A DNA stretch of 56,714 nt from an uncultured Eubacteriales bacterium (GTDB lineage: Bacteria; Bacillota; Clostridia; Peptostreptococcales; Anaerovoracaceae). The position numbers were made by a program, and so were the translations under genes. The stretch spans positions 1 to 56,714 of the forward strand of contig CACYHR010000029.1 in NCBI GenBank assembly GCA_902774265.1, given 5' to 3'. Positions 49,253-55,160 of the stretch are shown piece by piece. The number at the start of each line of letters is the position of its first letter. Within the stretch, counting starts at the first letter, position 1. Under the pieces are notes generated by a model. The model was given only the letters and a program-made list of their open reading frames with translations. It searched no databases and was not told the DNA's origin.

Positions 49253-50848
49253 ATGTATATCGTTGTATATGACTTCGGTACAAGCAGCGTGAAAACCTGT
49301 CTGTTTGAGATCGATACTGAAATACGGCTCGTAACGGGTGCCACGGCAGGGTACGGACTGTACATATCCGACGATGGTGGTGCGGAACAGGATACGGAAG
49401 AATGGTGGTCGGCACTGTGTAAGACTACACGTGAGCTGTTCAGGAAATCGGATGTCCGGCCTGAAGAAATCGAAGGAATGGCTTTTTGTTCACAGATGCA
49501 GGGTGCTGTTTTCGTAGATGAGAACGGCAATGCTGTCAGACCTCCAATGAACTATCTGGATCAGAAGGGTGTCAAAGAGTACAGGAATTGCATGGGCAGA
49601 GGGATAATCAAGGTCTCCGGCTGCAGCCTGTACAAGCTGGTACGGAATCTGATCGTGAATTATGCCGGTTCGACAAGCGCCAAGGATCCTGTATGGAAGT
49701 ACAAGTGGGTGGAGAACAACGAGCCCGAAACATATAAGAAAATATATAAATGGCTGGATATCGGCGACTACCTACTTGCGCGCTGTACGGGCAGGATTGT
49801 GAGGACTGCTGATTCAGCATTTGCGACCTTCCTGTATGATACCAGAAAGGGAAAGGAAGGCTGGAACCGTGGCCTGCTGAAGATGTATAAGGTAAATCCC
49901 GACCATATGCCGGAAATAATCGACTGCACGGATAAGGCCGGCGAACTGACGGAGAAGGCTGCTGAAGACCTGGGTCTCGTTAAGGGGATCCCTGTATTCG
50001 GAGGAGGTGGCGACACGACATTCGTCAATATCGGAGCCGGATGCACAAGGCCTGGAGACACACATATATATGTCGGAACATCCGGATGGGTATCGACATA
50101 TCTTGATTATCAGACTGTTGATATCAATGCAATGATAACAGGAGTTCTGTCGGCAAAGAAAGGATACTTCAATTATTACGCGGAACTGGAAACAGCCGGC
50201 AAGTGCTTTGAATGGGTCATGAATCATCTCGCACTGGATGAAATCGGTGTGTACCTGGACAGTATCAAGGTGACGGATGATTATGAGAAAAAGCATATAA
50301 ACCTTTATGATTATCTTTCTGAAGAGGTCAGCAAAGTGCCGCCGGGTGCGAACGGCGTGATATTCACCCCGTGGCTGCACGGCAACCGATGTCCGTTTGA
50401 GGACGCCAATGCAGGAGGGATGTTCTTCAACATCAGGATCGAAAACGGCAAGAGGGATATGATACGCGCTGTTCTTGAGGGTATCTGTTATCATCTGCGC
50501 TGGCTGCTTGAAAGCGAGGCGAAAAAGGTAAAAACGTCTGATAAGGTCAGGTTCGTTGGCGGCGGCGCGCTGTCGCCTGTTACATGCCAGATGCTCGCAG
50601 ACATTACAGGAAGACCGATAGAGACAGTAAGGAATGTCCAGGAGGCGGGCGCGGTCGGAACGGCGCTCGTTGTCGCGGCAGGCATCAGAGGCGTAGATGT
50701 ACTGGATCTGTCGCGTCAGCTTGTAAAAGCTGATCATGTATATATCCCGAATCGCGAAAACAGGGATGTATATGAACGAAACTATGATGTGTTTAAGAAA
50801 TTATATAAATCCAATGTATCGAACTTCAGGGATCTGAATGCAAAATAA
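49253..50848 (+). CDS. FGGY-family carbohydrate kinase
   Basis: 531 residues. It begins MYIVVYDFGTSSVKTCLFE, the phosphate-binding strand of the FGGY/actin fold, and carries FCSQMQGAVFVDE, GTSGWVSTYL and VRFVGGGALSPVTCQMLADITGRPI. These fit xylulokinase-type sugar kinases; the sugar is not fixed by sequence. AAGGAG is eight bases before the ATG. It begins a five-gene unit, with gaps of 71, 14, 59 and 58 bases between the genes. A possible promoter (TTGAGA, then TATATA after 18 bases) lies about 49110-49136. Confidence 0.88.
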   Translation: MYIVVYDFGTSSVKTCLFEIDTEIRLVTGATAGYGLYISDDGGAEQDTEEWWSALCKTTRELFRKSDVRPEEIEGMAFCSQMQGAVFVDENGNAVRPPMNYLDQKGVKEYRNCMGRGIIKVSGCSLYKLVRNLIVNYAGSTSAKDPVWKYKWVENNEPETYKKIYKWLDIGDYLLARCTGRIVRTADSAFATFLYDTRKGKEGWNRGLLKMYKVNPDHMPEIIDCTDKAGELTEKAAEDLGLVKGIPVFGGGGDTTFVNIGAGCTRPGDTHIYVGTSGWVSTYLDYQTVDINAMITGVLSAKKGYFNYYAELETAGKCFEWVMNHLALDEIGVYLDSIKVTDDYEKKHINLYDYLSEEVSKVPPGANGVIFTPWLHGNRCPFEDANAGGMFFNIRIENGKRDMIRAVLEGICYHLRWLLESEAKKVKTSDKVRFVGGGALSPVTCQMLADITGRPIETVRNVQEAGAVGTALVVAAGIRGVDVLDLSRQLVKADHVYIPNRENRDVYERNYDVFKKLYKSNVSNFRDLNAK

Positions 50849-50919
50849 TATAACAGACGCCAACAAGCATGCCCGGCGGATGCAATGACAATTTCCGGTG
50901 GAAACAAGGAGGAAATATA

Positions 50920-51552
50920 ATGAATGTATATGATTTTGACGGGACTATTTTCTATTCGGACTGCACTATAGGTTTTGCTCTCTGGTGTATGAAGCGTCAA
51001 CCCGGGCTGTGGTTCACTTTTTTCCCGGGCATGATGAAGACCCTGGTACTGCACAAAATGGGTAAGCTGCCGAATTATAAGCTGCAGCGCAAGATGTTCA
51101 GTGTTCTGACAATGGTAGATGATCTGGATGAACAGATCGAGCGCTACTGGGACAAATATGAGAAAAGGATCTCTTCGTGGTATCTGGCTCAGAAGAAACC
51201 TGACGATCTCATTATCAGCGCGTCCCCGGAATGTCTCATCGGGCCAATAGCAAAGAGGCTGGGCGTGAACTATATGGCTACGGAATACGACCCTGAATTC
51301 GGGATTTTTCTCAACAATCTGATGTACGCGAAGGAGAAGGCGAAGTATATATTTGATCACGGTTTCCCGATGATCGATAATTTCTACTCTGATTCTCTTG
51401 CCGATACGCCGCTCGCACTCTGTGCCGAAAAGGCGCATCTGGTGACCAATCATGCCAGCACGGTGATCGACTGGCCTGAGCTGGATGAGACGACCATGAG
51501 TAAGGTCAAGGAGAAAATCGACACAGGCTGGAACATACATCTGAAGGAGTAA
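50920..51552 (+). CDS. HAD-family phosphatase (HAD-IB type)
   Basis: About 210 residues. The motifs are complete: VYDFDGTIFYSD (motif I, nucleophile Asp), IISASPECLIGPIA (II), YAKEKAKYIFD (III, Lys) and DNFYSDSLADTPL (IV). The cap is helical (QPGLWFTFFPGMMKTLVL). HAD-IB enzymes dephosphorylate small phosphate esters such as phosphoserine or sugar-like phosphates. The ATG at 50920 has AGGAGG eight bases upstream. Following a sugar kinase in one operon, it may act on the product of that kinase or a derivative. Confidence 0.87.
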   Translation: MNVYDFDGTIFYSDCTIGFALWCMKRQPGLWFTFFPGMMKTLVLHKMGKLPNYKLQRKMFSVLTMVDDLDEQIERYWDKYEKRISSWYLAQKKPDDLIISASPECLIGPIAKRLGVNYMATEYDPEFGIFLNNLMYAKEKAKYIFDHGFPMIDNFYSDSLADTPLALCAEKAHLVTNHASTVIDWPELDETTMSKVKEKIDTGWNIHLKE

Positions 51553-51566
51553 GAGGAAACAAAGAA

Positions 51567-53288
51567 ATGAATGGTTTTTGCGAGAAAAAATTCAGATCAA
51601 TGCTGATATCAGGTACATTCACCAAGGCAGTCATGTACCTGATGCTGCTTAGCGACAGCATAATTGCAGGTTACTTTATAGGAGAAGCGGGTGTTGCCGG
51701 GATCAATGCGATCACACCGGTCACAGCAATCGTCACATTCTTCGGAGATCTGGTATCGACAGGCGTCGGGATTGCTTTCACACGCGAGGTCGGCGCGATG
51801 AGAAAGGACAGGGCCGATGAGATATACGGTCAGGGACTAATCATCAGCGTTGGCATGGGACTTATCTCAGCACTTCTGATATTTGTGTTCCGTGACGCTT
51901 ATTTCGGTATAAGCGGGGTCACGGGAGATATCCTGGATAGCGCGCTGCAGTATTACCGCTGGATCCCGATCAACGCGTTTCTGACCATTGTTATCTTCTA
52001 TCTGGAGCAGATGGTCTACAGTGACGGAGATGAGCTATGCAATAATATCTGCTACGGATTCCAGATCGGCGGTAACATTCTCTGTTCAGTCATACTGGCC
52101 AGGCACCTTGGTATGACTGGCATCATCCTGGGTTCCGTGACAGGCAACAGTCTCGGCATCCTTACATGCCTCTGGCACTATTTCCGCAAGGAGAATACGC
52201 TGCACTTCGTGTGGCATCTGTCATTCAGGGATTTCCTGATGACGTCGCGGTACAGCATCGTGGATTCTTCCGTATATATCTGCTGGGGCCTGATGGACTA
52301 TGTAATGATAGGATTTGTCTCAAATCACTATGGCGGATCCGGCCTGATCACTCTGGCAGTTGTCGTCAGCCTGATCGAGTTCGGCGTCGTGATGGATGGC
52401 GTGGGAATGGCGATGCAGCCGCTGATAGGTACATATTTCGGAGAGAAGAATCATCAGCTCATCAGGAGGGTCATGAGATCCGGCATCAAGGCTGCAATCG
52501 TTGAAGGCATTATCGCTACGATCTTTATCTGGATATTTGCGAGACAGTTCTGCGGTCTGTTCGGGATCACCGGCGGAGATTCTCTTGCACCGTCGATAAC
52601 AGCGCTTCGGATCGTATCGCTCGGGTTCGTGTTCTGCAGCCTGGTGTCGCTCACGACTTCGTATTATATGCTGATCGACCGTATAGGCATGGCAACATGT
52701 ATCGCGTGCTTCCAGAACGGTCTCCTGTACATTCTGCTGCCGATACTGGGATCATACATTTTTGGGTTCAATGGAATGTGGGCCGGATTTGCCGTTGCTC
52801 CTATGCTGACACTGGCAGCAGCTATGCTATATGTGTATATGCGATTCGGCAAAGATAATTTCCCGTTCCTGTTAAACTATATGGAGACAGAAATAATCGT
52901 GATGGACGATACTCTGTCGGCTGAGATCGTTTCAGAACTGTCTGAAAAGGTCGAAAGCTGCATGGAGTCCCATCAGTATTCTAAGGCAGATGCAAACCGC
53001 GCAGCGCTCTTCGTAGAGGAAATCTTTCTGACCATACTGGAAAAGAATAAAAAGAGCAGGAAGGCTATTCTGATCGAGATCTCTCTGTTCTTTGAATCTG
53101 ATTCTGTTCTCATCATTGCGCGTGATTCCGGGGATTTATTCGATCTGACTGACCCTGATCTTCATATCAGTGGATTAAGCGGATTCATACTCAGCGGATT
53201 GATGGAATCGCATAATGAAAAAGCTTATCTTGTGACCACTGGTTACAACAGAAATATGATACGCTTCAGACGCCATCAGGAGAGCTGA
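51567..53288 (+). CDS. MATE-family transporter with C-terminal HATPase-like domain
   Basis: 573 residues. The first ~445 form twelve helices with MATE signatures (KAVMYLMLLSDSIIAGYFIGEAGVAGINAI; GVAFTREVGA-like segment; GVGMAMQPLIGTYFGE). MATE proteins export small organic compounds with a sodium or proton gradient. The remaining ~125 residues look like an anti-sigma (RsbW-type) HATPase: DANRAALFVEEIFLTILEKN (N-box region), IIARDSGDLFDLTDPDL (G1 region) and a GFILSGLMESHNEKA stretch. The N-box Asn is replaced by Thr, so ATP turnover is doubtful. MATE plus HATPase-like tails occur in Firmicutes, but their role is unclear. Confidence 0.82.
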   Translation: MNGFCEKKFRSMLISGTFTKAVMYLMLLSDSIIAGYFIGEAGVAGINAITPVTAIVTFFGDLVSTGVGIAFTREVGAMRKDRADEIYGQGLIISVGMGLISALLIFVFRDAYFGISGVTGDILDSALQYYRWIPINAFLTIVIFYLEQMVYSDGDELCNNICYGFQIGGNILCSVILARHLGMTGIILGSVTGNSLGILTCLWHYFRKENTLHFVWHLSFRDFLMTSRYSIVDSSVYICWGLMDYVMIGFVSNHYGGSGLITLAVVVSLIEFGVVMDGVGMAMQPLIGTYFGEKNHQLIRRVMRSGIKAAIVEGIIATIFIWIFARQFCGLFGITGGDSLAPSITALRIVSLGFVFCSLVSLTTSYYMLIDRIGMATCIACFQNGLLYILLPILGSYIFGFNGMWAGFAVAPMLTLAAAMLYVYMRFGKDNFPFLLNYMETEIIVMDDTLSAEIVSELSEKVESCMESHQYSKADANRAALFVEEIFLTILEKNKKSRKAILIEISLFFESDSVLIIARDSGDLFDLTDPDLHISGLSGFILSGLMESHNEKAYLVTTGYNRNMIRFRRHQES

Positions 53289-53347
53289 CGGCGAAATGGC
53301 ATATGTTGATATTGAGACGCTGTACTGGTTTTACAAAGGAGGGGAAA

Positions 53348-54766
53348 ATGTATTATATTCTGGAAGAAGGTATCAAGCTCAAAAAATGGGCGAACGGCTG
53401 GGCCTGCTGTATTACGGAAGAAATGCGTCATCCGTTTCCGTTAAGGCCGAAGGATTACGCGCTTTTGAAAAGCTGCGACGGCATAACGGATCTGACCGGG
53501 AGTGACGCGCTGCGCGCATGGGAAGCGATGGGCGTGATACGGCAGTGTCGCAAGGGCGATGCATGTCTCGCGGAAGGGCAGATCAGGGAATTCCCGAACA
53601 AGCTGAATTGCGTCCTCGACTGGACGATCACCGACCGCTGTAATTACAACTGCCTGCACTGCTTCCATGCGGCGGACAACACGACACAGAAAAATGAGTT
53701 TACCCGCGAAGAGGCGTTTCGCCTTCTGGAGGAAGCGGAAGCCTGTGGCATTACCAGCGTTGAGTTGACGGGTGGAGAACCGACCATATATCCGTATTTC
53801 CGCGATGTAGTTCAGGAAATCCACGACCGTGGCATGCAGCTGGGATGCGTTGTCACTAACGGCTCGATGATGGACGAGGATCTTGCGGCCTTCATCAAGA
53901 AGCTGCACCCGAATGCGCTGATCGCAATCTCTTTTGACGGCATCGGTGTTCACGACTGGCTGCGCCAGCATGAGGGCAGTGAGGAGAGCGCCAAGCGGGC
54001 CATCCGTAACTGCGTTGCCGCAGGGCTGAAGGTCGTGAGCAACATGAACGTGAACCGAAGGAATAAGGACGTGCTCTTTGGTTCGATCAAAATGATGGCG
54101 GATCTGGGAGTGGATCATCTTCGCGTCATCAAGACAACGGAAGTGCCGCGGTGGGAACTGAATGCCGAGGACTTCTCCATGACGCCGGAGGAATACTACG
54201 ACTATTCTATCGAATTCGCCAAATGGTACCGCGACAGCGGCATGACTATTCCTGTAAGGCTATGGCAGGTCCTGGCTCTGAACGGAAGGGAACAGATCTA
54301 CCATGTTGTGCCGGTGAAGGCGTCCCAAAGTACTTACTGCGAATACGAAATGACCTGTCCGGATATGCTGAAAAAGCTCTCCGTCCAGCCTAACGGGGAG
54401 ATCATCCCATGTGCTCCGATGGCCGGTATCCTCTCATCGAGGAACATCCACCTGGGCAATGTGAAGCAGGAGGGGCTGGCAAAGCTGCTCTCTGAAGGAC
54501 CTCTGTATGATCAGGTAACGTACACGGTGAAGGATAAGCGGCAGGCCAATCCAAAATGCGCCGGATGCCGGTATTTCACATACTGCCAGGGCGGCTGTCC
54601 TGCAGTGGGACTGCTTTTCAATGGCAGTCCTCTTGGCACAGACGATTATAAGTGTTTATTCTTCGAAAAAGGTTATTACAGGAAAATCAGCGATGTCATG
54701 AAAGGGTGGAAGAATCTGCTCCCATTGACGGAAGCGGAAGAGAAATTACTCTCAGGAGAGGATTGA
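53348..54766 (+). CDS. Radical SAM/SPASM peptide-modifying enzyme with RRE-like N-terminus
   Basis: 472 residues from the ATG with AGGAGG five bases upstream. The radical SAM cluster is C98-x3-C102-x2-C105 in TDRCNYNCLHCFH, followed by VELTGGEPTIYP. The C-terminal SPASM domain is complete: C337-x12-G-x4-C355 (CPDM...PNGEIIPC), C404-x2-C407-x5-C413-x3-C417 (CAGCRYFTYCQGGC) and C436. The first ~80 residues (MYYILEEGIKLKKWANGW...) resemble a PqqD-like recognition element that grips leader peptides. Enzymes of this layout build thioether or C-C links in peptides. The small peptide gene 58 bases downstream is the likely substrate. Confidence 0.88.
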   Translation: MYYILEEGIKLKKWANGWACCITEEMRHPFPLRPKDYALLKSCDGITDLTGSDALRAWEAMGVIRQCRKGDACLAEGQIREFPNKLNCVLDWTITDRCNYNCLHCFHAADNTTQKNEFTREEAFRLLEEAEACGITSVELTGGEPTIYPYFRDVVQEIHDRGMQLGCVVTNGSMMDEDLAAFIKKLHPNALIAISFDGIGVHDWLRQHEGSEESAKRAIRNCVAAGLKVVSNMNVNRRNKDVLFGSIKMMADLGVDHLRVIKTTEVPRWELNAEDFSMTPEEYYDYSIEFAKWYRDSGMTIPVRLWQVLALNGREQIYHVVPVKASQSTYCEYEMTCPDMLKKLSVQPNGEIIPCAPMAGILSSRNIHLGNVKQEGLAKLLSEGPLYDQVTYTVKDKRQANPKCAGCRYFTYCQGGCPAVGLLFNGSPLGTDDYKCLFFEKGYYRKISDVMKGWKNLLPLTEAEEKLLSGED

Positions 54767-54824
54767 TGATGAGATCCGGATTATTGGCTCATCATTGAAC
54801 AGATGTAAAATGGAGGAGAACGCT

Positions 54825-55106
54825 ATGAAAGATGCGAAACAGTTTTTTTCGGATTTCACTGACAGCGAATTACTGCGCAGCCGGATTTGTGAGGAGATGA
54901 ACCGCCTGATCGATGACGAAGCTCCGGAAGCCTGGCAGGCAGGACAGAAAGCTGCGCACATCCTGGGGTATGATATACCGGATGAGGTCGCTAAGACGAT
55001 CGTTGTGCGCGTACAGGGAATCAGTGAGGATGAACTGAAGGAGCTGTCGGAAGATGAGGCTAAAGCGATAGCCAGCGGAGATCCGCGTCTTCCGGCATGC
55101 TGCTGA
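54825..55106 (+). CDS. Putative RiPP precursor peptide ending in PACC
   Basis: 93 residues, acidic, no membrane part. The sequence ends ISEDELKELSEDEAKAIASG followed by DPRLPACC. The LSEDE..A.ASG segment is like the end of Nif11/NHLP leader peptides, where a cut after the Gly releases the core. That would leave an eight-residue core, DPRLPACC, with two Cys as the only obvious modification sites. The first half (FFSDFTDSELLRSRIC, EEAPEAWQAGQKAA-like) is helical. GGAGG lies eight bases before the ATG at 54825. It follows the SPASM gene and is the last gene before a terminator. No homolog was searched; a non-RiPP accessory role is possible. Confidence 0.6.
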   Translation: MKDAKQFFSDFTDSELLRSRICEEMNRLIDDEAPEAWQAGQKAAHILGYDIPDEVAKTIVVRVQGISEDELKELSEDEAKAIASGDPRLPACC

Positions 55107-55134
55107 TACATGTGCGCCTGACCGCGAAATGACG

Positions 55135-55160
55135 ACACCTCTTCGGAGGTGTTTTTTTTT
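55135..55160 (+). terminator. Terminator of the radical SAM operon
   Basis: ACACCTC, loop TTCG, GAGGTGT, then eight T. A very strong intrinsic terminator. Confidence 0.92.

Follow-up and report, generated by a model that had tools for sequence, protein, structure and literature searches.

Do a sugar kinase, a phosphatase, a transporter, a radical SAM enzyme, and a small peptide that are encoded one after another work in a single pathway, or does their order bring together genes with separate roles? The five genes lie within the 56,714-nucleotide stretch of DNA from an uncultured Eubacteriales bacterium that was analysed here (the window), where they follow rpsI. The sequence-only reading of this DNA had described five same-strand genes ending at one terminator, and the open reading frames, coordinates, and terminator were all borne out:

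49253..50848, + strand: FGGY-family carbohydrate kinase, 531 residues (Pfam FGGY_N/FGGY_C; module 2)
50920..51552, + strand: HAD-IB-like phosphatase, 210 residues (Pfam HAD, 29.1 bits, cut-off 27; module 2)
51567..53288, + strand: MATE-family transporter with a C-terminal HATPase_c_2-like extension, 573 residues (Pfam MatE; HATPase_c_2 below cut-off; module 2)
53348..54766, + strand: radical SAM/SPASM peptide maturase, 472 residues (Pfam Radical_SAM and SPASM, 11 predicted cluster cysteines, AlphaFold2, Foldseek; module 1)
54825..55106, + strand: precursor-like peptide, 93 residues, with residues 1-85 as predicted helical leader (module 1)
55080..55103, + strand: predicted core DPRLPACC, residues 86-93 of the peptide (DP[R/H]LPACC in 4/4 copies)
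55134..55153, + strand: intrinsic terminator, 8 pairs, 4-base loop, T run (terminator scan)

The gaps between the genes measure 71, 14, 59, and 58 bases, and a scan of the + strand found no terminator-like site inside them; these short, terminator-free gaps suggest that all five genes may be co-transcribed. Four of the five products are named by domains that score above the Pfam cut-offs (FGGY_N/C, HAD, MatE, Radical_SAM, and SPASM), and searches of Pfam and NCBIfam found no family that matches the 93-residue peptide. The transporter had been read as a MATE-HATPase protein, of which the MatE part stands and the HATPase part is weak (15.1 bits, cut-off 27.4); the HATPase part of a distant MATE protein, at locus L036, scores 39.1 bits. 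We consider it probable that the block consists of two modules arranged head to tail, a RiPP maturase/precursor pair (module 1) and a separate, conserved sugar-kinase/transport set (module 2).

The enzyme of module 1 likely starts at position 53348 and not with the longer open reading frame from 53303, because a strong ribosome-binding site, AAAGGAGGGG, precedes the former. With a CxxxCxxC motif and the seven-cysteine SPASM pattern, the protein is, as judged from its sequence, a maturase of the radical SAM/SPASM class. All eleven cysteines expected of such an enzyme were located residue by residue, in a pattern of three plus eight (C98, C102, C105, C331, C337, C355, C404, C407, C413, C417, and C436). 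A scan of 84,980 species, each represented by one genome, returned 115 stretches related to the enzyme, of which 80 were kept; the enzyme tree holds 75 of 83 extracted rows, four having been dropped for in-frame stops and the others for too little coverage. C98, C102, and C105 are cysteine in all 75 aligned rows, and the seven SPASM positions from C337 onward are cysteine in 99-100% of them. The eighth, C331, is cysteine in 4/75 rows; as some cysteine lies within 14 residues before C337 in 61/75, the idea that C331 is unique to the clade was set aside. By analogy with anSME, whose cluster ligand assignment we assume carries over, this set of cysteines is what a SPASM enzyme needs for two auxiliary clusters.

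The AlphaFold2 model of the enzyme has a mean pLDDT of 91.7, and its best Foldseek matches are SkfB, SuiB (481 aligned columns), and CteB (structure 5why, which we take to be CteB). Residues 2-67 are modelled as strands and helices that may form an RRE (PqqD-like) domain, so that the model and its Foldseek matches are consistent with the RRE-like N terminus of the sequence-only reading. SkfB, SuiB, and CteB are described as RiPP maturases with an RRE, SkfB having a twitch domain instead of SPASM (PMC8326336, in the part of the text available). The window's enzyme is like these proteins in fold, in CxxxCxxC, in its SPASM cysteines, and in being encoded next to a small peptide that ends in a C-terminal tail, but differs from them in sequence (14-17% identity in the structural alignments), in the eight-residue length of the putative core, and, from SkfB, in having SPASM in place of twitch. 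Among the NCBIfam matches listed for the enzyme, all 25 fall short of their cut-offs.

Close relatives of the enzyme (83% identity) occur in three genomes, those of Oribacterium P6A1 (L008), Butyrivibrio AC2005 (L009), and Oribacterium WCC10 (L010), and the remaining relatives are at most 63% identical. Looking for enzyme and peptide together, as had been proposed, gave an adjacent peptide for all four close enzymes (at least 83% identity, window included). The homologs in P6A1, AC2005, and WCC10 likewise have 93 residues, are 73-74% identical to the window's peptide, and adjoin the enzyme gene in divergent orientation; these three copies were reached through the enzyme scan and not with the peptide as query. 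When the family to which the window belongs was searched by tblastn (349 genomes), the peptide was found in its own genome only (1/349), and no peptide without the enzyme was seen, the direct peptide search covering the 349 family genomes and viral contigs. A viral setting for either gene was rejected, as neither was found among the viral contigs searched, as was a plasmid setting for the enzyme, all 103 plasmid records being below 60% identity.

The peptide ends in ...AIASG|DPRLPACC, so that the leader-like ASG end and eight-residue core of the sequence-only reading are both present, and its three cysteines are residues 22, 92, and 93. Of 94 codons (stop included), 24 encode a residue other than that of the WCC10 copy and 27 carry synonymous changes; the nonsynonymous codons number 16 of 36 in residues 1-36 and 8 of 57 in residues 37-93. 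The peptide is under purifying selection, with dN at 0.16 and dS, near saturation, at 1.67. Alignment of the homologs, a check that had been proposed, places the PACC end in the better kept, C-terminal half, with the tail varying solely by R/H. This conservation counts as one independent comparison, because the four copies represent two lineages and three of them are nearly identical. A model built from the four sequences (mean pLDDT 76) is helical to residue 83, with a disordered tail whose residues 90-93 have pLDDT below 50. Adjacency in 4/4 loci and the conserved C-terminal half support the pairing of enzyme and peptide, and their reading as a RiPP maturase and precursor is plausible.

The wider enzyme family offers points of comparison. 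The four PACC enzymes group together with support of 100/100, nested within a 15-row clade in which many loci hold Cys-rich peptides with GG leaders. The sister group comprises the enzymes of L011-L013; peptides at L011 and L013 have GGCC tails, with 14 and 10 residues after GG, respectively. Homology of the PACC leader to the leaders of this sister clade was rejected, the profile alignment being unconvincing (probability 5.8%). The PACC leader also matched none of the leader and precursor families searched, and a Nif11 leader was rejected, with no TIGR03798 match at E ≤ 5 and none at E ≤ 10 for the window's own genome and WCC10. A regular-expression survey, which yields false positives and overlooks at least two known peptides, those of L011 and L013, returned candidate leader peptides at 52 of 81 loci, 103 in all; their median core length is 65, and the PACC cores, all four with eight residues, are the shortest. 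Elsewhere in the window's own genome (G000:C53 and C25), three peptides score above the Nif11-leader cut-off, one of which shares its contig with two C39 matches. At L011:8353-9375 and L012:2343-3167, a protein with a RiPP-leader-like N terminus lies directly 3′ of the SPASM enzyme, with a Fic domain in the case of L011. At five further loci (L029, L030, L033, L037, and L071), a LanM-like protein, with DUF4135 and LANC_like domains in L030, is encoded 11-48 bases upstream of the SPASM enzyme; by gene content, these are possible hybrid lanthipeptide/radical SAM clusters.

Among named systems, there is also a likeness to ACGX-like (TIGR04340) and Nif11-type loci. Enzyme relatives at 52-57% identity share their loci with a second SPASM enzyme, which in L015 scores 371.6 bits against TIGR04340, under the cut-off of 400, and the peptides of such loci have GGC...C tails, one L014 peptide passing the Nif11-leader cut-off. 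In contrast, the PACC loci show a single SPASM enzyme at the pair, no nearby C39/ABC exporter gene, no GG, and no leader that matches Nif11. SCIFF-type peptides have six cysteines in about 45 residues. A ranthipeptide of this type was rejected for the window, where the peptide has three cysteines and no family match; SCIFF is named in the accessible part of PMC8326336. As judged by titles and the openings of abstracts, the literature yielded no paper on the enzyme/peptide pair, and Oribacterium, AC2005, and P6A1 go unnamed in the main text, as far as it was available, of a Hungate1000 bacteriocin paper (PMC13289728).

Module 2 can be followed apart from the pair. The kinase has both FGGY_N and FGGY_C and is, on these domain matches, an FGGY carbohydrate kinase; none of its 13 NCBIfam matches reaches its cut-off. 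FGGY relatives at 45-74% identity occur in 94 other genomes of the family, and among the best 29 of these 94, viewed with flanks of ~1.5 kb, a class II aldolase gene adjoins 21 and a class III aminotransferase gene 11. The aldolase neighbors suggest that these distant FGGY genes fit sugar metabolism. Operons of FGGY kinase, aldolase, and aminotransferase in the same family hold kinases 51-59% identical to that of the window and, in genome G051, HAD and MATE partners as well, whereas the window's kinase has no adjoining aldolase or aminotransferase. The G051 order is HAD-MATE-aminotransferase-aldolase-FGGY (51%), without the peptide. The HAD phosphatase is present at 70% identity or more in 10/349 family genomes including its own; the nine others (70-83%) all lack the peptide, and the neighbors of the gene vary among them, with aminotransferase and aldolase genes nearby in G085 and G064 and an adjoining STAS-like gene in G272. 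In G669, a genome of another family, an FGGY gene at 76% identity is part of a MATE-FGGY-GtrA-SpoIIE-STAS-HAD run (L207:5991-12181). This run, which appears to join a transporter and a sugar kinase to genes of a partner switch, is possibly a system of its own. Neither G669 nor G331, which has an FGGY fragment at 74%, has a close copy of the enzyme. AC2005 carries MATE-HAD-FGGY at 77-83% on a different contig from the pair. The arrangements in G669, G051, and AC2005 indicate that kinase, phosphatase, and transporter belong together and exist without the pair, and they weaken the reading of the block as one operon, against which such recurrence apart from the pair had been named beforehand. These absences and separations are uncertain because the genomes are incomplete (G669 87%, G051 82%) and, in the AC2005 draft, the contig ends 1.2 kb away from the pair. 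The window's own genome has a second MATE gene (G000:C93, L105), 84% identical to the first, on a 3.1-kb contig.

If the modules are separate, their repeated meeting calls for an account. Close FGGY and HAD genes are present in 4/4 genomes with the peptide, and a close FGGY gene occurs in 2/391 genomes of the class (the window's own and G669), a base from which the rate among close Oribacterium and Butyrivibrio kin may differ; counting the 74% fragment, the figure is 2/349 for the family, own genome included. The presence of so rare a kinase in all peptide genomes favors a link between the modules. The association amounts to three lineages at most, because the two Oribacterium loci represent one event. 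By these counts it appears real and commoner than rarity predicts, but unexplained.

One account, which we regard as possible though doubtful, is that the modules have unrelated functions and spread among Clostridia as joint passengers on mobile DNA. P6A1 and WCC10 have 9.6 kb in common at 99.4% identity, and P6A1 and AC2005, of different genera, have 2150 bp in common at 99.4%. That shorter stretch contains the enzyme/peptide pair together with 43 bp from the 3′ end of the kinase gene; this retained gene end argues that the AC2005 pair derives from a kinase-linked locus. L009 has a serine recombinase gene upstream and L008 a transposase gene downstream, and by these comparisons the pair is rare and mobile between Oribacterium and Butyrivibrio. 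The insertion point fits this account as well: rpsI is matched in 42/47 genomes of the window's genus, FGGY follows it in none of the 29 other genus genomes examined (26 with at least 600 bases past rpsI among the loci listed), and the site after rpsI is, on this comparison, variable. Against passive carriage, the order and orientation differ between the window (FGGY-HAD-MATE-enzyme-peptide) and Oribacterium (HAD-FGGY, then the peptide reversed, then the enzyme), which suggests repeated assembly. Moreover, AC2005 has its separate MATE-HAD-FGGY set, with a kinase 82% identical to that of the window where the Oribacterium copy is 78% identical.

An unlikely reading makes all five genes one pathway, in which the FGGY kinase would phosphorylate the PACC product for self-protection or activation, the HAD phosphatase would dephosphorylate it, and the MATE protein would export it. 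Collinearity and short gaps speak for this, as do the contrast between 4/4 peptide genomes and the rarity of close FGGY and HAD genes elsewhere, and the existence of two distinct gene orders in which FGGY and HAD adjoin the pair. Further evidence concerns export. MbnB belongs to the DUF692/MNIO family, and the five genes encode no DUF692/MNIO protein (Pfam), so a methanobactin-like system was rejected. Methanobactin and the window do have in common a small peptide and a MATE gene, the window's enzyme being instead a radical SAM protein. Since methanobactin is a small RiPP with a MATE exporter gene, MbnM (PMC3621798, in the part available), a MATE exporter in a RiPP cluster, presented earlier as unusual, was already known. 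A MATE gene also lies directly 3′ of distant enzyme relatives in L045, L049, and L057, and 156 bases on in L046. By phmmer, MATE genes are found within 8 kb of enzyme relatives at six loci besides the window, all in one seven-row clade, and a second-round profile adds L067, L083, L056, and weaker ones; we give this count little weight because it is near chance by an estimate made without a control. Four loci (L045:2788-6188, L049:11405-16415, L046, and L057) have a run of SPASM enzyme, MATE protein with a HATPase-like tail, and GH3-family protein, followed in L049 by SpoIIE.

C39-ABC exporters were matched (tblastn, E ≤ 1e-8) at 51/81 enzyme-family loci, 40 of them over the C39 part, although other ABC proteins may match too and many contigs are short. 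The PACC loci gave 0/4, L010 being the one with 10 kb on both sides, and no leader peptidase was seen near the pair. C39 proteins are encoded elsewhere in 3/4 PACC genomes, none having been found in the Oribacterium P6A1 draft. From gene content, the MATE protein is a possible exporter of the PACC product in the window and AC2005. The two Oribacterium carrier drafts have no close MATE gene (best 23-24%), which weighs against a single pathway, as do the FGGY-HAD-MATE sets of G669 and G051, the nine peptide-free family genomes with the HAD gene, the separate contigs of AC2005, and the aldolase genes beside distant FGGY relatives. Still less probable is an elaborated minimal RiPP pathway in which DPRLPACC would become a tiny thiol or thioether product, reversibly phosphorylated (on the product or a joined sugar) by the FGGY and HAD proteins, and in which a HATPase/STAS/SpoIIE partner switch would gate its export through a MATE protein. 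Finally, that the small protein serves the enzyme as a stable partner or as a regulator and is no RiPP precursor would suit its lack of a leader or precursor family, its largely helical residues 1-83, and its unusually short core, but is very improbable given the more conserved C-terminal half including the tail, the modelled disorder of that tail, and the many enzyme relatives that adjoin GG-leader, Cys-rich peptides.

We therefore return to the two-module reading. In module 1, the RRE/SPASM enzyme would bind the helical leader of the peptide and perform radical chemistry on the tail DPRLPACC, the peptide being its presumed substrate. One or both terminal cysteines would most likely be used, for example in a thioether to a nearby residue, and a protease whose gene lies elsewhere would then cut off the leader. 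Module 2 would act as a separate set made up of the FGGY kinase, the HAD phosphatase, and the MATE protein, whose tail is HATPase-like; the G669 locus is a fuller copy of it, with its SpoIIE and STAS genes as components of a putative partner switch.

If module 1 works as proposed, its core would be the shortest found here beside an enzyme of this SPASM family, and radical chemistry at vicinal cysteines could be studied on a simple two-gene substrate; the pair is, moreover, mobile between genera. As judged by titles and abstract openings, no literature on FGGY kinases in RiPP biosynthesis was found; a functional link between the pair and these two enzymes, kinase and phosphatase, would make the FGGY kinases a new family in RiPP biosynthesis.
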